Shown in pieces: positions 3,666 through 21,894 of a stretch of 33,467 nt of DNA; positions within the stretch are counted from its first letter, which is position 1, and each line of letters begins with the position of its first letter. Below the pieces are notes generated by a model. The model searched no databases. It was given only the letters and a program-made list of their open reading frames with translations, and had not been told where the DNA came from. Where the stretch lies: the NCBI GenBank assembly GCA_936940865.1, contig CAKZJB010000021.1, forward strand, positions 1-33,467, in the 5' to 3' direction. This DNA comes from an uncultured Asticcacaulis sp. (lineage in GTDB: Bacteria; Pseudomonadota; Alphaproteobacteria; Caulobacterales; Caulobacteraceae). The translations under genes were made by a program, and so were the position numbers.

Positions 3666-4625
3666 TCAGGACAGCGCGGCATGCCCCAGGAAGTGGACAA
3701 TGATGTCCGGGTGGTCCTCAAGGAGCCTTTCCCTCAAGCTGTGCAGTTCCCCCACCGGCCACCAGCGGGCCTCTGCCGCATCGTCGTCACCCGCCACGTC
3801 AGGCAACGGCCCGCCTTCGACGACGAAATGGAAGCCATGGGTCACCACGCGGCCGCGCGAAGAACGGTCCGGCGCGTCGAACACGCCGCGCCCCTTCAGC
3901 GCGGTGCGAACCTCGTCATCGGTCAAGGTCAGGCCGGTTTCTTCACGCAGTTCGCGGAAGGCGGCGTCGATCAGCCATTCCCCCGGATCGACGAAGCCCC
4001 CCGGCAGGGCCCAGTTGCCCTTGCCCGGCACACCCCCGCGCCGGATCAGCAACAGGTGCGGTCCGCCGCCGTCGGGAACATGGACGATGACCGTGTCGAC
4101 GGTGACCAGCACCGGCGGATAGGGCGCCACCGACCACGCCCGGCGGTAGTTTTCGACATACCGGTATTCTTCACGGAAGCCTTCATAGGCGTCCGTCGCG
4201 CAAAAGGCCGACAGCGCCGCTATGACGCTGTCGGAAACCCGGCCGCGCGCCGCTTCGGCGCCGCGCTCGAACAGGGCGGCGATCAATTCGGGATCGTCCG
4301 GCAGGTCGGGCAGGCGCACGGCCGCGCCGCTCTCCACGCTCGCGATCGCGGCCACCTCGGCGGCTTCGCGCGCCGTCCGGTCGTACCGCCAGTCGGGCAC
4401 CGCCCGGATCACCACCCGGTCACCGAACGGTGCAACCGCCGCTTCCGCCATTTCGGTCCTTGCCGCAGCCGTCCAGGGCATGCGGCACGACGGCGCCTGC
4501 TCTGCGGCCGACACCAGAAGCAGAACGCGGTCCGCCCGCGACAGGGCATCCTCAATGACGGCAAGCGCCGGCAGGGCCAGGGGCGCGAAACGGCCGCGAA
4601 TAACGGCAAGGCGTTGAAGGGGCAT
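3666..4625 (-). CDS. Nudix hydrolase with degenerate NadM-like nucleotidyltransferase domain
   Basis: Two-domain protein built like NadM-Nudix, the bifunctional NMN adenylyltransferase/ADP-ribose pyrophosphatase. The C-terminal Nudix domain (about 190-319) has a complete Nudix box from Gly210 to Leu232 (GFVDPGE ... REL REETGL) and should hydrolyse a nucleoside diphosphate derivative such as ADP-ribose. The N-terminal domain (1-165) keeps the opening GRF (11-13) of NadM, but the two histidines of the nucleotidyltransferase HxGH signature are replaced ([13 protein letters not shown]: Ala17 and Ala20), so NAD synthesis by this domain is unlikely. I start it at the ATG at 4625, which has GAGGA 7 nt upstream; an in-frame TTG at 4649 has no such site. 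It is divergent from the porin gene. Confidence 0.85.
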
Positions 4626-4764
4626 GAAATCCTCGGGCTGAATCTTCAAGTTTCCAACGATTCTTGGCGCCCCGCAATTATCGGGGGATCACACACCGCT
4701 GCCATTGTCACCAAAGATTAGGGTTATCGGGATAGAGTTCCGCCCTTCTTTTCAGACTGTCACC
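4626..4764. promoter_or_regulatory. Divergent nudix/oprB regulatory region with motif TTGTCACCAAAG
   Basis: This 139-bp divergent spacer contains an isolated copy of the replication iteron (4680-4697) and, 7 bp further, TTGTCACCAAAG at 4705-4716. The same 12-mer occurs on the minus strand at 17174-17185, upstream of the TonB receptor gene, and the similarity extends to TTGTCACCAAAGwTTAr. Both copies are 50-80 bp upstream of a gene for an outer-membrane transporter. A shared operator or promoter element is a reasonable reading, but no clear -10 box lies at the expected distance. Confidence 0.4.
4680..4697 (+). repeat. Orphan replication iteron (class A)
   Basis: ATCGGGGGATCACACACC here shares 17 consecutive bases with the iteron at 21509-21526 and, with flanks, 19 of 20 bases with the iteron at 21585-21602. 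It is the only match to the iteron core that I found outside the origin, 16.8 kb away, in the upstream region of oprB. A RepA binding site at this place is an inference from the sequence identity. Confidence 0.85.
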
Positions 4765-5868
4765 ATGCGCGTATCGTTCCTCCGCGGCCTCACCTCCGCT
4801 CTGCTTCTGCTACCGGCTGCCGCCATGGCCGACGACACGGGCCTCCATGCCGCCGGCGCCTGGACCACCGACGCCGTCGCCGACCTGTCGGGCGGATTGC
4901 GCCGGGGCGGCCTGGTCATGCATAATCTCGACCTCACTACCGACTGGCGGGCGGGTGAATGGTCTGCCCACGGCTACATCCTCGGCAATTTCAACGGCGG
5001 CTTTTCCGACCGCTACGCCGGCGACATCCAGACCGTGTCCAACATCGATACCACGCCCGCTGTCCGGCTGTTCGAGACCTGGGTGCGCCATACGTCTTCA
5101 GACGGCAAGACCACGGCGACCTTCGGGCTGATCAACCTCAACGCCATATTCGATGTCCAGGACGTGGGCGGGCTTTTTCACAACAGCTCGCACGGCATCG
5201 GCCCCGACTACAGCCAGTCGGGGCCGTCCATCTTTCCCATCTCGGCCCTGGGCTTCGTCGCCGAACACCGGATGGGACCTTTGCGCCTGCGCGCCGGCGT
5301 GTTCGACGGCGTTCCGGGCGACGCCAATGACGATCGCCGCTTCGCCTATATCCGCCTGGCCGGGGATGAGGGCGCGCACATCGTGGCCGAGGCGCAATAC
5401 GACTTCAGGGGCGGCCGCGTGAAGCTCGGCCACTGGGCCGACACCGCCGCCTATCCCCGTATCGACGGTACCGCCAACGGCCACCGCTCGGGCACCTATG
5501 GCCAGGCGCAGGTCACGATTGACGACACGACCCAGGCCTGGATCCGCACCGGCATAGGCCAAGACACGACACTGCCCCTGTCGGCCTATATCGGCGGCGG
5601 TGTGGTGCGGTCCGGTCCGTTCGGCCGCGGGGACGACGCCATCGGCGTGTCGGTGGCGCACGCCCGCTTCGGCGTGCCCTATCGCGCGACGCAAAGCGCC
5701 TCGATCGACGCCGAGACGACGTGGGAAGTCACCTACCACTACGCGGTCCGCAAGGGCCTGAGCCTGGAGCCCGACCTTCAGTATGTCGTCAATCCGGGTG
5801 GAGACCTGTCGGTGGCGAACGCCGTTGTCGCAGGCGTTCGCATCCGGGTTGATCTTTTCGGCTCATAA
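4765..5868 (+). CDS. OprB-family carbohydrate-selective porin
   Basis: Outer-membrane beta-barrel porin of the OprB family, which lets sugars across the outer membrane. The ATG at 4765 opens a Sec signal peptide (MRVSFLRGLTSALLLLPAAA) with cleavage after AMA at residue 22; the frame continues upstream only from a TTG and would bury this signal. Family landmarks are LFETWVRH, the FGLINLNAIFDVQDVGGLF stretch, and repeated amphipathic strands to a C-terminal RIRVDLFGS. At 367 residues it is somewhat shorter than Pseudomonas OprB. It is followed by a sodium:solute symporter and a halogenase on the same strand, which suggests an uptake cluster whose substrate I cannot name. Confidence 0.85.
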   Translation: MRVSFLRGLTSALLLLPAAAMADDTGLHAAGAWTTDAVADLSGGLRRGGLVMHNLDLTTDWRAGEWSAHGYILGNFNGGFSDRYAGDIQTVSNIDTTPAVRLFETWVRHTSSDGKTTATFGLINLNAIFDVQDVGGLFHNSSHGIGPDYSQSGPSIFPISALGFVAEHRMGPLRLRAGVFDGVPGDANDDRRFAYIRLAGDEGAHIVAEAQYDFRGGRVKLGHWADTAAYPRIDGTANGHRSGTYGQAQVTIDDTTQAWIRTGIGQDTTLPLSAYIGGGVVRSGPFGRGDDAIGVSVAHARFGVPYRATQSASIDAETTWEVTYHYAVRKGLSLEPDLQYVVNPGGDLSVANAVVAGVRIRVDLFGS

Positions 5869-5940
5869 TCGGCCTTCCCAAATCGCCGGTTTGTGCTCTA
5901 CTTGGGCAAAAACCCAAAGATCTCAGGGAAACCGGCCCAT

Positions 5941-7527
5941 ATGTTTCAGGCGTCACGCCTAAGCCTGCTCGATCTCGGCGTCATCCTCGTCTATTTCGCA
6001 GGCCTCGTCCTTGCCGGCTGGTTCGACAAACGCAGGGTGCTGAAGGCGCGCGACCACTTCCTGGGCGGCAACTCCGCCTCGTGGCCCCGGGTCGGCCTGT
6101 CGCTGTACGCCACGACCATATCCGCCATCACCCTGGTGGGGGTGACGGGCTCGGCCTACGCGCACGGCATCTCGGTCTTCAACTACGAATGGCCCGCCGC
6201 CATCCTGCTGATCCTCTTCTGCGCCTGCGTGCTGCCGACCTATATCCGGAGCCAGGTCTATACGGTGCCGGAATTCCTGGAACTGCGCTACGGCCGCTTC
6301 GTCAGAACCTATGTTTCGGGCCTCAGCGTCCTGCTCGGCACCTTCCTCGACGCCTCCGGCGCCCTGTTCGCCGGCGGCGTCCTGTTCCAGATCCTGTTCC
6401 CGGCGTGGCCCCTGTGGCAGGTGTGCGTGCTGCTGGCCCTGCTGGCGGGCGCCTTCCTGATCCTGGGGGGGCTGCGCGCCATCCTGACCATAGAGGGCAT
6501 CCAGGGCGTCATCATGGTGACCATCTGCGCCTCCATGGCCTGGTTCACCTACCAGGCCGCCGGCGGCTGGCACGAGGCCCTGGCGAAGGTGCCTCCGGCC
6601 CACCTCAGGCTGGTCCTGCCGGCGTCGGACCCGGTCATGCCGTGGACAGGGCTGGTGACCGGCGTGCCGCTGATCGGCTTTTATTTCTGGTGCACCAACC
6701 AGACCATGGTCCAGCGCGTCCTGGCGGCCAAATCGTTGGACGAAGGCCGTCTGGGCAGCCTTCTGGGCGGCGCGCTCAAGCTGACCAGCCTCTTCCTCGT
6801 CATCCTGCCGGGCGCGGCGGCCATTTCGCTCTTTCCCCACCTCGACCATCCCGACACCGTCTTCTCGCACATCGTTTTCGGCCTCCTGCCGCACGGCCTC
6901 GTCGGCCTGATCGTCGCCGCCTGCCTGGTGTCGCTGCTGTCGGGGCTGGCGGGCATCTACAACGCCACATCGACCCTGCTAACCATGGACTTTATCCGCC
7001 GCCTGTGGCCGGACCTCGACGACCTGCAGCTGGTCCATGTCGGCAAGTGGACGGCGGGCGGCCTTATGGCGGTCTCCGTCCTGTGGGCGCCGCAGATCGT
7101 CCATTTCCCCGGCCTGTGGCAGTATCTTCAGGCGCTCCTGTGCTACTTCGTGCCGCCGATCGCCGCGGTCTTCCTGGGGGGACTGTTCGTCCGCCGCGTC
7201 AATGCCACGGGGGCCGCCTGGGCGCTTTGCGCCGGCACGGCCGCCAGCATCGTCCTTTTCGTCGGCATCGCGCTCCTGCATGCCATCCCCCTGCACTTCC
7301 TGGTCGCCGCCATTGTCATCTTCGCCGTGGCGCTGATCGCCCTGTTTGCCGGAAGCCTGACGGCGCCGGCGCCCGACCCGGACAGGATCGTGCCGCTGAT
7401 GTTCTCGCGCGCCGTATGGGCCGCAGAGACGGAGCACCTGAAGACCGTGCCGTGGTACCGCAACTACCGCCACCTGTCGGTCGGCCTGTTCGTCGTGACC
7501 GTGGCCATCGTCCTTCGCTTCGCGTGA
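5941..7527 (+). CDS. Sodium:solute symporter (SSS/SLC5 family)
   Basis: Inner-membrane transporter expected to bring a sugar, polyol or organic acid in with Na+. The protein is hydrophobic throughout with about 13 predicted membrane helices. The N-terminus (LSLLDLGVILVYFAGLVLAGW) and the LSGLAGIYNATSTLLTMDFI stretch in the second half match the SSS fold, the latter carrying the serine/threonine residues of the Na+ site helix. I start at the ATG at 5941, which has CAGGGAAA upstream; an in-frame GTG 48 bp earlier is less likely. The length of 528 residues is normal. It lies 72 bp after the porin and 67 bp before the halogenase, so the three could be cotranscribed. Substrate is not predictable from sequence alone. 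Confidence 0.88.
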   Translation: MFQASRLSLLDLGVILVYFAGLVLAGWFDKRRVLKARDHFLGGNSASWPRVGLSLYATTISAITLVGVTGSAYAHGISVFNYEWPAAILLILFCACVLPTYIRSQVYTVPEFLELRYGRFVRTYVSGLSVLLGTFLDASGALFAGGVLFQILFPAWPLWQVCVLLALLAGAFLILGGLRAILTIEGIQGVIMVTICASMAWFTYQAAGGWHEALAKVPPAHLRLVLPASDPVMPWTGLVTGVPLIGFYFWCTNQTMVQRVLAAKSLDEGRLGSLLGGALKLTSLFLVILPGAAAISLFPHLDHPDTVFSHIVFGLLPHGLVGLIVAACLVSLLSGLAGIYNATSTLLTMDFIRRLWPDLDDLQLVHVGKWTAGGLMAVSVLWAPQIVHFPGLWQYLQALLCYFVPPIAAVFLGGLFVRRVNATGAAWALCAGTAASIVLFVGIALLHAIPLHFLVAAIVIFAVALIALFAGSLTAPAPDPDRIVPLMFSRAVWAAETEHLKTVPWYRNYRHLSVGLFVVTVAIVLRFA

Positions 7528-17173: not shown

Positions 17174-17185
17174 CTTTGGTGACAA
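17174..17185 (-). promoter_or_regulatory. TTGTCACCAAAG motif upstream of the TonB receptor
   Basis: On the minus strand this reads TTGTCACCAAAG, followed by TTTAAT, 76 bp before the receptor ATG. It matches the copy at 4705-4716 before the porin gene. A 12-mer match in 33 kb is not rare by itself; the shared position before two outer-membrane transporter genes is what makes it noteworthy. Confidence 0.35.
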
Positions 17186-17670: not shown

Positions 17671-18372
17671 CTACTCCGGCATCGCCTCGATCAGGTCCAG
17701 GGACTCGTTCAGGATGCGCCGCATGGCCGTTTCCGCAGCCGCGCCATCGCCCCGTTCGATGGCGTGGAAGACCTCCGCATGGTCCTCGATATTGGCCGTG
17801 TGACCGGAAATCCGGTTGGTCAGGCCGATCGAAATGGTCAGCGCCGTCTGGATCAGCTCGCGCATCTGCAGCAGGAACGGATTGCCGGCCGCCTTCAGGA
17901 TGGCGACATGGAAGTCGATATCGGCCAACAGCGCCCTGGCATGGTCGCCGGCTTCGTCGGCCATGACCTTGAGCGCCTGGCCGATGGCGTCGAGATCGGC
18001 CGCGGATGCGCGTTTGGCCGCCAGTTGCGCCGCTATCGGCTCGACCGCCAGCCGCACCTCGGTGTAGTCGCGATAGATTCTCGATGTGAACGGCCGTTCG
18101 GTCATCCAGCGCGTCACGTCGGGATCAAGCAGATTCCAGCTGGCGACCGGCTGGACGCGCGTGCCCTGGCGCGGCCTTGACGTCAGCAAACCCTTGGCCG
18201 CCAGCATCTTGACGGCTTCGCGCGCGACGGTGCGGCTGGCGCCGTAGCGCGCCGCCAGTTCGCCCTCCGTCGGGAAAGGGGTACCGTCGAAATCGCCGGC
18301 GACGATCGCCTGGCCAAGCGTTTCCAGAAGTCCGTAGGTCAGGCTCACACCATGTACGCGCATCATATTCAT
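17671..18372 (-). CDS. GntR/FadR-family transcriptional regulator (FCD domain)
   Basis: Metabolite-responsive repressor. The winged helix-turn-helix covers about 12-75 (FPTEGELAARYGASRTVAREAVKMLAAKGLL and RPRQGTRV), and the FCD ligand-binding domain about 95-230 (DIDFHVAILKAAGNPFLLQM, then EDHAEVFHAIERGD), which contains the histidines and aspartate that bind a metal ion and an organic-acid ligand in this family. FCD regulators usually control sugar-acid or galactonate-type catabolism. The ATG at 18372 follows AGGGAAG; a GTG at 18408 lies inside a palindrome and is less likely. There is no adjacent metabolic operon, so its target besides itself is unclear. Confidence 0.9.
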   Translation of the reverse strand: MNMMRVHGVSLTYGLLETLGQAIVAGDFDGTPFPTEGELAARYGASRTVAREAVKMLAAKGLLTSRPRQGTRVQPVASWNLLDPDVTRWMTERPFTSRIYRDYTEVRLAVEPIAAQLAAKRASAADLDAIGQALKVMADEAGDHARALLADIDFHVAILKAAGNPFLLQMRELIQTALTISIGLTNRISGHTANIEDHAEVFHAIERGDGAAAETAMRRILNESLDLIEAMPE

Positions 18373-18391
18373 CCGTTCGCTTCCCTGTAGC

Positions 18392-18408
18392 GTGATCACA
18401 TTGATCAC
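18392..18408. promoter_or_regulatory. Perfect palindrome upstream of the GntR gene, likely autoregulatory operator
   Basis: GTGATCA-CAT-TGATCAC is a perfect inverted repeat with 7-bp arms and a 3-bp centre, located 20-36 bp before the regulator's ATG. Size and position fit an operator bound by the GntR dimer to repress its own gene. Confidence 0.65.
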
Positions 18409-19133: not shown

Positions 19134-19829
19134 ATGAAGACCCTGGCCATCGTTTCGCAGAAGGGCGGCGTCGGAAAGACGACGATCGCCGTTCACGTCG
19201 CCGTCGCGGCCGCCAAGGCCGGCTACAGCGTCGCCATCATCGACCTCGATCCGCAGGCGACCGCCGCCCAGTGGTCCGACTGGCGCAGGGCAGGGGAGGG
19301 GGACGCCGCTTCCGACAACCCCGTCGTGGTGGCCGCCCCGCACGCGCGGCTGGTGCCGACTCTGAAAGAGGCCGAAAAGATGGGGGTCGACCTGGTGATC
19401 CTCGACTCGCCGCCGGCCGCGGACTCGGCCGCGGTCGCCGCCGCCAAGGTCGCCGACCTGGTGGTGATCCCGACGCGCGCCTCGGCCTTCGACCTGCACG
19501 CCATCAAGACGACCGCCGAACTGGTCCGCGTGGCGCAAAAGCCCGCCGCCGTGCTGCTCAATGCCGTGCCGGCGCGCGCCAACGCCCTGATCGAGGAGGT
19601 GGCCACCGTCATCCACTCGCTCAACCTCAATATCGCGCCCGTCTGCCTGGTCGATCGCGCGGCGTTGCGCCACGCCGTCATCAACGGCCAGACCGCCGGC
19701 GAATTCGAGCCGGCCGGCAAGGCGGCCGACGAAGTCCAGAAACTTTATACGTGGGTGTGCGGACGGCTGGATATGCCGACGCGTCCACAAGACAAAAATC
19801 AGTCCGAACCGCTTAAAGGTGCCGCATGA
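19134..19829 (+). CDS. parA: ParA-family partition ATPase
   Basis: Segregation ATPase of 231 residues. The deviant Walker A motif KGGVGKTT is at 10-17, Walker A' is DLDPQATAAQW, and Walker B is VDLVILDSPPA, all typical of the ParA/Soj group. It lacks an N-terminal DNA-binding domain, which puts it in the short type Ib class that partners with a small ribbon-helix-helix protein rather than with a large ParB. The ATG at 19134 begins MKTLAIVSQ, with AAGGCGG upstream; longer upstream frames are composed of non-coding-like residues. The stop overlaps the next gene's start (ATGA). It would move replicon copies over the nucleoid by ATP-driven gradients. Confidence 0.92.
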   Translation: MKTLAIVSQKGGVGKTTIAVHVAVAAAKAGYSVAIIDLDPQATAAQWSDWRRAGEGDAASDNPVVVAAPHARLVPTLKEAEKMGVDLVILDSPPAADSAAVAAAKVADLVVIPTRASAFDLHAIKTTAELVRVAQKPAAVLLNAVPARANALIEEVATVIHSLNLNIAPVCLVDRAALRHAVINGQTAGEFEPAGKAADEVQKLYTWVCGRLDMPTRPQDKNQSEPLKGAA

Positions 19830-20185
19830 GCAAATCGAACGCCCGCCCGAGCCTCGCCGAACGCCTGGCCGCCGTCGCCGGTCCTCCGGCCCAGCCCGCC
19901 GCCATGATCGAGAAGGAAATCGAGAAACTCGACACGGCGCGCGCCACGGCCATCCAGGCTCCGCGCGTCAAAAAGCCCACTGTGGTGGCGCCCGCGCCCG
20001 AGATCGTGACTGTCCCTAAGGCGCGCGACGGCAAGGTCATGGTCGCCGGCTATTTCAGCCCGCAGATGGCCAAGGCGGTGAAACTCCTGGCCGTCGAGCG
20101 CGACACGACGGTGCAGGCGCTGATCGGGGAGGGGCTCGACACCATACTTCACAAATACGGCAAGCATCCGATGGGTGAGCGGTAA
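19826..20185 (+). CDS. Ribbon-helix-helix partition partner of ParA
   Basis: A 119-residue protein whose start overlaps the parA stop by 4 bp. The N-terminal two-thirds is flexible (PAQPAA, APRVKKPTVVAPAPE) and may contact ParA, while residues about 70-115 (VMVAGYFSPQMAKAVKLLAVERDTTVQALIGEGLDTIL) look like a ribbon-helix-helix DNA-binding unit with the beta strand VAGYF and two helices. This layout is that of ParG-like centromere-binding proteins, which also repress the partition operon. I infer that it binds sites near parA; no crystal-clear operator is visible. Confidence 0.78.
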   Translation: MSKSNARPSLAERLAAVAGPPAQPAAMIEKEIEKLDTARATAIQAPRVKKPTVVAPAPEIVTVPKARDGKVMVAGYFSPQMAKAVKLLAVERDTTVQALIGEGLDTILHKYGKHPMGER

Positions 20186-20521: not shown

Positions 20522-21472
20522 ATGACCCGCCGCCGCGATCCCAATTCCGAGCTCGACCTGTTCATCCCCCTGCTGCACGACGTGCCGCTGAAGGATCAGC
20601 GCGAGACCATGGAGCGGCCGTTTTTCAGCCTGCAAAAACGCAAGCGGCTGAAACCCATAGAATATCGTTCGCCCGACGGCGACGTCTGGGTCAAGGTCGA
20701 AGCCATGCCCGCCTATGGCATGGCGACCATCTGGGATGCCGACATCCTGATCTGGGCGGCTTCGGCCCTGGCGCGCATGAAGGCGCAGGGCGTCAACGAC
20801 CTGCCCAGGACGCTCAAGACCACCACCTACGACCTGTTGCGCGCCATCAAGCGCGATACGGGCGGCAAGGCCTATGCCGAACTTCAGGCGGCCCTGCAGC
20901 GGCTGGAGACGACATCGATCCGCACGTCGTTGCGGGCGCCCACCCGCCGCACGGAGGCGCAATTCGGCTGGCTCGACGGCTGGACGCTGGAAATCGACCA
21001 GAATACCGGCCAGCCGCGCGGCATGACGCTGACCCTGTCGAACTGGGTGTACGAAGGCATAGTGGGTGACCGGTCGTTGTTGACCATGCACGGCGATTAT
21101 TTCCTGCTGACCGGTGGCCTGGAGCGGTCACTCTACCGCATCGCCCGCAAGCATGCCGGTGTGCAGCCCGAGGGCTGGCTGTGCCGCCTGGAGATCCTGC
21201 ACACCAAGACGGGCTCGGACAGCCCGTCCAAGGAATTCAACCGCATGCTGCGCAAGGTGGTCGAGCGCAATCAGCTGCCGGAATACGACCTCAGGCTGAC
21301 CACGACCCAGGACGGATCGCCGGCCCTGTTCGTCGTCAATCGCGTGGCGGCCCTGGAAGGGGCGGTGACGGCCGAACTGGCCCTGCTTAACGAACGCGAC
21401 GGTCTGCCGCCTCCGGCGCCGGCCAAGCCCCTGAAAACGAAGGGCCGCCGCCTCGTCCAGGCGAACGCATAG
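20522..21472 (+). CDS. repA: Replication initiator protein RepA (RPA family)
   Basis: Initiator of the RPA family (PF10134) found on alphaproteobacterial plasmids and secondary chromosomes, 316 residues. Conserved features include the start RRRDPNSELDLFIPLLHDVPLKDQRE, PFFSLQKRKR, the DADILIWAAS stretch, and the winged-helix-like part around LSNWVYEGI and GGLERSLYRIARKHAG. It should bind the iterons downstream (21485-21894), open the AT-rich region with DnaA, and load the helicase. Gene order parA - ribbon-helix-helix - repA - iterons is standard for such replicons. Promoter region carries GANTC sites, and translation may be coupled to a 3-codon leader. Confidence 0.92.
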   Translation: MTRRRDPNSELDLFIPLLHDVPLKDQRETMERPFFSLQKRKRLKPIEYRSPDGDVWVKVEAMPAYGMATIWDADILIWAASALARMKAQGVNDLPRTLKTTTYDLLRAIKRDTGGKAYAELQAALQRLETTSIRTSLRAPTRRTEAQFGWLDGWTLEIDQNTGQPRGMTLTLSNWVYEGIVGDRSLLTMHGDYFLLTGGLERSLYRIARKHAGVQPEGWLCRLEILHTKTGSDSPSKEFNRMLRKVVERNQLPEYDLRLTTTQDGSPALFVVNRVAALEGAVTAELALLNERDGLPPPAPAKPLKTKGRRLVQANA

Positions 21473-21484
21473 GCCGACTTATCC

Positions 21485-21737
21485 ATCGGGGGAACGCACA
21501 CCCGGCGATTCGGGGGATCACACACCCGAATGCTGCCGCAAATCGTTAATCCACAGGGCTTTGCGACAAAGGCATGACGCATCTATCGGGGGATCGCACA
21601 CCGATTCGCTTGAGCCTGCTCGTCACGCGACTCGGCGCAGGTCATCGGGGGATCGCACACCGGCGCCGAAAGCCGAAATCCCGCGCCGCAGGCCGGCAGG
21701 GGAGGGGCGGCCGGTTCCCTTCGGGGGATTACACACC
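21485..21737 (+). repeat. Class A iterons (five copies)
   Basis: Copies at 21485-21502, 21509-21526, 21585-21602, 21644-21661 and 21720-21737, all in the same orientation, with consensus WTCGGGGGATCGCACACC. Spacing is irregular (24, 76, 59, 76 bp). The sites are expected RepA targets. A sixth copy lies alone at 4680-4697. Confidence 0.9.
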
Positions 21738-21755
21738 CGAAGCCGGCGGGCCATC

Positions 21756-21776
21756 TGTGGGTAAGTCTGTGGATAA
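21756..21776 (-). promoter_or_regulatory. Paired DnaA boxes between the two iteron classes
   Basis: On the minus strand 21768-21776 reads TTATCCACA, a perfect DnaA box, and 21756-21764 reads TTACCCACA, one mismatch, spaced 12 bp apart. They sit exactly between class A and class B iterons, as in iteron origins that need host DnaA. Confidence 0.75.
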
Positions 21777-21808
21777 TCATGGCGTGCCGGCGAAATCCGC
21801 GCGGCCGG

Positions 21809-21894
21809 GACGGGGGATTGCCCACTTTTTCGTCGGGGGAATACCCGCTTGCGTACCGGGGGAACACCCACTGAATATCGGGGGAATGCCCACT
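21809..21894 (+). repeat. Class B iterons (four tandem copies)
   Basis: Copies at 21809-21826, 21832-21849, 21855-21872 and 21877-21894 share CGGGGGAATRCCCACT. The 5' half is the same as in class A, but the 3' half is CCCACT rather than CACACC. Period is 23, 23 and 22 bp, about two helical turns, so all lie on one face of the DNA next to the AT-rich region. This is the likely loading platform for RepA. Confidence 0.85.

Follow-up and report, generated by a model that had tools for sequence, protein, structure and literature searches.

Introduction

Once-per-cycle control of large replicons derived from plasmids is known in detail mainly for Vibrio Chr2 (available part of PMC6090056). According to the available part of PMC3937223, six extra sites on Vibrio cholerae Chr2 bind the initiator RctB and lower the copy number of ori2 plasmids, and extra RctB sites near ori2 inhibit Chr2 replication, in a region likened to datA, the DnaA titration and hydrolysis locus near oriC. 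In the available part of PMC11711613, mutating three prominent extra RctB sites had minimal effects, one of them weakly negative, and the role of the RctB sites on Chr1 is called uncertain. The crtS site of Vibrio Chr1, which enhances firing, has no iteron similarity and lies on the other chromosome (PMC3937223 and PMC11711613, in their available parts). Here we describe, in the genus Asticcacaulis, perfect copies of the iteron of a plasmid-type initiator that lie far from the origin. Extra iterons that titrate or handcuff are otherwise familiar from P1 incA and mini-F incC, where they stand next to the origin. Our literature search found no paper treating both Asticcacaulis and iterons, and among the matches listed for extra-origin initiator sites of secondary replicons only Vibrio titles were directly on the subject.

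Like the extra RctB sites of Vibrio Chr2, the Asticcacaulis sites stand singly and dispersed near the origin of their own secondary replicon, and the low-confidence model of their putative initiator, RepA, resembles RctB and RepE. They differ in that the initiator belongs to the RPA family and the iteron is another one, that several sites are kept base for base at orthologous loci, and that the exact placed sites face the origin; on the Asticcacaulis side, the comparison covers the sequence of a single site type. With Escherichia coli datA they would share the character of an initiator-binding locus in cis near the origin, but datA acts on DnaA-ATP, whereas here single iterons of a plasmid-type initiator are concerned. 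As with crtS, a site off the origin would be recognized by the initiator of the secondary replicon, yet the Asticcacaulis sites are perfect iterons, most of them on the replicon that carries repA. The strong iterons, spaced out between repA and what is likely the core origin, resemble the incompatibility blocks of P1 and mini-F; unlike incA and incC, which adjoin the origin, the lone sites lie 10-70 kb off.

Results

The window analyzed here, a stretch of 33,467 nucleotides, is the whole of contig C21 in a 5.07-Mb draft genome of 245 contigs (G000, genus Asticcacaulis). It carries the following features.

3666..4625, minus strand: nadM-Nudix (NMN adenylyltransferase/Nudix), named from the best NCBIfam matches, which are below cut-off; start 55 bp from the lone site
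4677..4705, minus strand: candidate sigma-70 promoter of nadM (ATGGCA, 17 nt, GATAAT; 9/12 matches)
4681..4697, plus strand: lone iteron TCGGGGGATCACACACC, a perfect match to the consensus, located between nadM and oprB and facing the origin 16.8 kb off
4765..5868, plus strand: oprB-family porin, start 67 bp from the lone site
5941..7527, plus strand: SSF symporter (longer frame 5893-7527)
19134..19829, plus strand: parA-like ATPase, upstream of repA
19826..20185, plus strand: ribbon-helix-helix protein (Antitox_RHH), between parA and repA
20522..21472, plus strand: repA, Pfam RPA (PF10134) replication initiator (E 9.8e-76, 254.7 bits against a cut-off of 27)
21486..21502, plus strand: origin iteron 1, strong class, 1 mismatch
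21510..21526, plus strand: origin iteron 2, strong class, 17 bases identical to the lone site
21586..21602, plus strand: origin iteron 3, strong class
21645..21661, plus strand: origin iteron 4, strong class
21721..21737, plus strand: origin iteron 5, strong class, 1 mismatch
21768..21776, minus strand: DnaA box TTATCCACA, found by eye between the strong and weak iteron groups (consensus as quoted in the available part of PMC3937223)
21810..21894, plus strand: four weak iterons (starts 21810, 21833, 21856 and 21878; 22-23 bp spacing; 4-5 mismatches)

With an RPA-family initiator gene and direct repeats beside it, the window has the make-up of an RPA (PF10134) iteron replicon. The nine iterons counted in an earlier, sequence-only reading of this DNA are all present and all downstream of repA (21486-21894); the five strong ones (21486-21737) are loosely spaced, unlike the weak group with its 22-23 bp, and the weak block (21810..21894) is likely the core origin. 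An AlphaFold model of RepA, of low confidence (mean pLDDT 53), has its best structural matches in RctB domains 2-3 (E 1.2e-5) and then RepE (E 3.5e-3), with TM-scores of just 0.3-0.4, and a phmmer search of RepA against PDB sequences gave 0 matches. Three further RPA-family repA genes are found in the genome, on contigs C104, C175 and C5, so that up to four such replicons may co-reside.

The lone iteron lies 16.8 kb from the first origin iteron, on the same contig as repA. Positions 4680-4697 read ATCGGGGGATCACACACC and, as had been claimed, have 17 consecutive bases in common with an origin iteron (at 21510-21526) and, with flanks, match 19 of 20 bases of 21584-21603; compared with the strong origin class (21486-21737), 17/17 bases are equal. 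Scored with a matrix derived from 39 origin iterons (five replicons, that of the window among them), the site reaches 28.6 bits, which is the matrix maximum and is attained by the exact lone sites and by 5 of the 39 origin copies. It is the sole non-origin match of at least 11 bits within the window, for which 20 Markov shuffles gave a mean of 0.3 matches, and at equal base use a 4.5-Mb genome would hold the exact two-fold word ~0.001 times. Together with the scan of 390 genomes described below, the matrix score, the shuffles and the expected count led us to reject a chance match, in keeping with the earlier estimate that such a match is very unlikely by chance. A mobile repeat carrying the 17-mer was rejected because unrelated flanks share only the 17-mer (by eye), and a CcrM GANTC signal was set aside, GAATC preceding the site in only some copies.

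Within two mismatches, the pattern matches the G000 genome 15 times: five times at this origin, once at the window site and nine times on other contigs, whereas the reversed pattern gave 0 matches across the whole genome at the same threshold. The nine off-contig copies comprise two exact ones (C82:68050 and C201:29724), three with one mismatch (on C61, C160 and C223) and four with two. The window site thus belongs to a scattered set, and the description of the site as lone applies to the window and fails for the genome.

We then sought the RepA protein and the 17-mer separately in 390 Caulobacteraceae genomes. RepA of 84-100% identity is found in five Asticcacaulis genomes (G000, G009, G020, G022 and G002). 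These five hold 16 non-origin exact copies (G000 3, G002 7, G009 0, G020 1, G022 5), whereas the remaining 385 genomes together have a single one, in G003, besides an exact copy that G036 carries at its own origin. Across the whole genome_contigs collection (257 billion bases), the exact word occurs in 48 stretches, many of them from unrelated bacteria such as Streptomyces and Nocardia, with ~60 expected by chance. Outside this group the exact word is thus at chance level, and the excess is confined to genomes with this type of RepA. The closest RepA (94%) is that of G009; in that genome, nadM has only a two-mismatch variant, and lone sites with zero or one mismatch are lacking. On the repA contig of G022 (C2), nine non-origin matches pass the 11-bit cut-off against a mean of eight in three shuffles, and only the exact 28.6-bit sites stand out above the shuffles; the best non-exact match on that replicon, ACGGGGTTTCACACACC at G022:C2:264648, scores 22 bits and lies within a called gene 193 kb from the origin. 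In three sphingomonad plasmids (RepA 75-77%), iterons were found at the origin only.

G022, assembled in three contigs, shows where the exact lone sites lie: all five are on the repA contig C2 (618,632 bp) and none on the other two (p ~4e-5 if sites were spread uniformly). On one side of the origin there are three of them, 66-70 kb away; the two on the opposite side lie at 16 and 20 kb. The window site (16.8 kb) and the five G022 sites (at most 70 kb) are thus on the same replicon as their origin and near it. This location speaks against a crtS-like site on the main chromosome: the comparison with crtS in the sequence-only reading finds no support, because the exact sites of G022 are all on its repA contig, as is the window site on its own. 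Contig C82 of G000 is collinear with G022:C2 141-146 kb over five genes, and the C82 site, 3.7 kb beyond those genes, is therefore probably on the window's replicon. The assignment of C61, C160, C223 and C201 to a replicon was ambiguous or found no homologues, and for the G002:C32 site, as for C201, no placement was obtained. Two sites depart from the cis arrangement: the contig of G002:C13:85951 carries another repA (36%), and G003:C1:64055 belongs to a genome without a close RepA. They are possibly trans sites or relics. Both are exact clade I iterons on contigs with their own repA, 36-37% identical.

The site upstream of nadM recurs in relatives. An exact iteron lies 63 bp upstream of the nadM counterparts in G022 and G002, on the strand opposite to the gene as in the window, and variants at the corresponding place have two mismatches in G009, three in G011 and four in G017. 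The NadM proteins are just ~43-48% identical, yet the site and its relative orientation are kept in G000, G022, G002 and G009; in G011, unrelated repeats stand beside the genome's own repA. Among 28 nadM loci, a match within three mismatches is present at 5 and absent at 23, the second nadM of G022, on C1, being one of the latter. As for the expectation that relatives with the same repA share the site, among four relatives it is exact in two and has two mismatches in one, while G020 lacks it at that place and has no full-length nadM match either. The SSF gene and nadM, which flank the neighborhood of the site, are also found in G009, G022 and G002. The pair is found on opposite sides of the origin when G000 and G009 are compared with G022 and G002, and the SSF gene is in every case the closer of the two to the origin, an arrangement suggestive of an inversion about it. 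The equal distance from origin to nadM on opposite sides is explained by this common SSF-nadM arrangement and was dropped as an independent signal.

Lone sites mostly differ between species. Where G022 and G002 have orthologous sites, four pairs keep 68/68 bases while their 60-bp flanks are 52-87% identical, a retention with p ~6e-7 to 2e-5 at 81-85% background identity; for the lone site on G022:C3, the aligned G002 counterpart differs by one mismatch.

A second RepA clade (clade II, RepA 64-69% identical) has its own iteron, TCGGGGGATCAGTGACC, and its own distal lone sites. Allowing one mismatch, clade II words occur 0 times in the single-clade genomes G000 and G009, and clade I words 0 times in G001, G004, G006, G007, G013, G015, G016 and G019. 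One clade II lone site, beside a TonB receptor gene, is found at the same locus in six genomes, exact to a widened pattern in G004, G007, G019 and G006 and with one mismatch in G015 and G013. It stands after a LacI-family gene and before a terminator-like hairpin in G004, G007 and G019, facing the end of the TonB receptor gene. The G006 copy, which has extra DNA in between, and the one-mismatch G015 copy fall at this locus by BLAST, and the one-mismatch G013 copy falls on its TonB side, across from another gene; G016:312906 was assigned to this locus by distance alone. The tie between 17-mer and RepA assumed in the sequence-only reading is supported, if indirectly, by the way in which the word tracks its cognate RepA across the 390 genomes, by the separate spellings of the two clades and by the four orthologous sites that keep every base while their flanks diverge.

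Clade II replicons outside Asticcacaulis have an iteron pair ~1.5 and 2.6 kb past the origin, in opposite orientations (45499 and 46572 in G344:C2; alike in G290, G135, G351, G380 and G139), and a similar pair lies at ~0.7 and 2 kb in Asticcacaulis clade II (e.g., G004). We also scanned 13 further genomes of the family for TCGGGGTTTCRCMCACC. Exact copies were found in 8 of the 13, every one at the genome's own origin, which shows that the family does not need lone sites in general. The other five (G278, G272, G148, G145 and G285) have no exact copy; the pattern therefore probably misdescribes their iterons, and these genomes do not bear on the question. One-mismatch matches off the origin occur in G083, G036 and G338, and also in G148, G145 and G285, and the reversed control gave one match, in G277. 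One such form, TCGGGGTGTCGCACACC, one mismatch from TCGGGGTTTCRCMCACC, is found once each at G083:C37:26172, G148:C1:96740 and G145:C32:194883.

As for the genes around the window site, the one previously called nudix encodes a NadM-Nudix enzyme, judging from its best NCBIfam matches, all of them under the curated cut-offs. The lone iteron occupies the spacer of the candidate nadM promoter, for which shuffles gave a mean of 0.1, and overlaps its -10 element; because of this position, the proposed action of RepA as a transcription factor is possible at the window site. At the other lone sites, the neighbors include an amidase, an inositol phosphatase, a nucleotidyltransferase, a uracil-DNA glycosylase, a tryptophan halogenase and an iron permease, without a visible pathway in common such as the operators of a regulon would lead one to expect, and several sites are at 3' ends, 6-22 bp past a stop codon in convergent gene pairs, no promoter-like match being found around two of these. 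Intergenic positions account for 7 of the 11 independent exact sites (p 3e-4 at 15% noncoding; p 0.03 at 31%, the highest value of five contigs). This test collapsed orthologs, left out G003 and counted as genic both G002:C32:34395, where gene calls disagree, and G020:59522, which overlaps the last bases of a gene; the gene calls came from our own codon-bias script, not from an annotation.

The oprB motif TTGTCACCAAAG does begin 7 bp past the lone site, as claimed, but a tie between the two finds no support, since no oprB homologue is found on the repA contigs of G009, G002 and G022, which keep the site or a variant of it. The motif occurs three times in the genome—before oprB, before a TonB receptor gene and inside a coding frame on C223—and these three copies, with the lack of an oprB homologue on the G009 repA contig, ruled out a dependence of the site on it. 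In the window it stands at 4705-4716 (plus strand), upstream of oprB, and at 17174-17185 (minus strand), upstream of the TonB-dependent receptor gene; it may be the operator of a common uptake regulon, with a GntR/FCD regulator encoded nearby at 17671-18408.

Finally, we tabulated the orientation of distal sites. The 14 exact ones and the G009 site at nadM, 15 in all, face their cognate origin without exception, whereas the six one-mismatch distal sites divide into three toward the origin and three away. Counting independent exact loci, with C82 placed by synteny, 10/10 face the origin (two-sided p 0.002); adding independent one-mismatch sites gives 12/15 (p 0.035), the TonB-receptor locus, one of the three toward-facing sites, being counted once. 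The orientation idea is post hoc and arose from the same data, and the count left out matches on unplaced contigs. Among clade II sites close to the origin (within ~3 kb), both orientations are represented.

Discussion

We put at roughly 50% the probability that the lone 17-mers are extra-origin RepA sites acting in cis by titration or handcuffing. Among the options raised in the sequence-only reading, this datA-like one fits best. Directly seen are the excess of the word in genomes with the cognate RepA, the clade-specific matching, the conservation across species, the nearness to the origin and the orientation of the exact sites; RepA binding, titration or handcuffing, and an effect on copy number are what we infer from sequence. 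The megaplasmid's own RPA-type RepA would bind the extra-origin 17-mer, of which that replicon carries a small set, perfect and of the strong class, at distances of 10-70 kb from its origin. If V. cholerae Chr2 is a guide, the lone sites, with RepA bound, would be duplicated soon after initiation, and the duplicated sites would draw RepA off the origin or handcuff with its RepA-bound iterons, so that the origin would be kept from refiring too early. Several extra copies, kept in related species, probably help to restrain how often the plasmid is copied, even if titration by a handful of single sites may be slight next to nine iterons at the origin. Also weighing against this explanation are the scarcity of lone sites in G009 despite its close RepA, the exact copies outside the cis arrangement, the one-mismatch G002 counterpart of the G022:C3 site, the restriction of exact copies to the origin in eight further genomes of the family and of iterons in three sphingomonad plasmids, and the minimal effects of mutating extra RctB sites (available part of PMC11711613). 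It is from the findings on extra sites in V. cholerae and the structural likeness to RctB that we rank titration or handcuffing first and a repression of nadM next.

Under the latter explanation, RepA would be a local transcription repressor of nadM, and perhaps of oprB, tying NAD genes to replication, and the lone sites would mainly be operators. An iteron that fills the spacer of the candidate nadM promoter is what such an operator would look like, and its retention upstream of nadM (exact in G000, G022 and G002, two mismatches in G009) despite ~43-48% NadM identity points the same way, as do the forms at a like place with three mismatches in G011 and four in G017. It is a serious rival, though in our view an unlikely one, given the unrelated neighbors at the other lone sites, the sites 6-22 bp past stops in convergent pairs (two without a promoter-like match) and the 23 of 28 nadM loci, including the C1 copy of G022, without a match within three mismatches; moreover, the own repA of G011 has unrelated repeats, and RctB is reported to regulate its own transcription only (available part of PMC11711613). 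That G011 has a variant upstream of nadM without having that iteron type, and that one exact copy occurs in G003, a genome lacking a close RepA, could also mean that a different DNA-binding protein reads the scattered 17-mer and that the likeness to the iteron is secondary. This is very improbable in our view, since the word tracks the cognate RepA across 390 genomes and each RepA clade has lone sites of matching spelling.

The variation of most lone sites between species would suit functionless relics of old origin rearrangements or recombination debris, of which G011 (three mismatches) and G017 (four) may preserve decayed forms at nadM. Debris would hardly be expected to keep every base in four G022/G002 ortholog pairs (p ~6e-7 to 2e-5) or a TonB-receptor site in six clade II genomes; the sites share only the 17-mer, without origin flanks (by eye), and 7 of 11 independent exact ones are intergenic (p 3e-4 to 0.03), and we find relics an improbable explanation. 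The orientation of the sites, if it holds, is unexpected for a simple titration site, and it raises the possibility of directional elements, in which an origin-facing RepA-iteron complex, rather than serving as a mere sink, would affect replication forks, transcription arriving from one side, or the machinery of loop extrusion or segregation. All 15 exact or nadM distal sites, and 10/10 independent exact loci (p 0.002), agree with such elements. We give this explanation little credence, for the idea is post hoc, the one-mismatch sites are split 3 to 3, the wider count (12/15) has p 0.035, clade II sites near the origin face both ways, and unplaced contigs were left out. To our knowledge, no such directional mechanism has been described for iterons.

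A broader and rather unlikely conjecture is that large Asticcacaulis replicons of the RPA type carry conserved, replicon-specific perfect iterons that face the cognate origin from both arms and form a directional, co-evolving mark, through which the initiator would sense or limit how replication or DNA moves away from the origin that it serves. Such a mark would add a layer of control that is new and was not seen in the related plasmids examined outside the genus. If titration or handcuffing by the lone sites is true, Asticcacaulis would offer a second case after Vibrio Chr2 of extra-origin sites of this kind, with another initiator family and among relatives of Caulobacter, whose group serves as a model for the cell cycle. 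The two clades, which co-reside and spell their iterons differently, and the related plasmids that lack clear lone sites would then make for a clean comparison.
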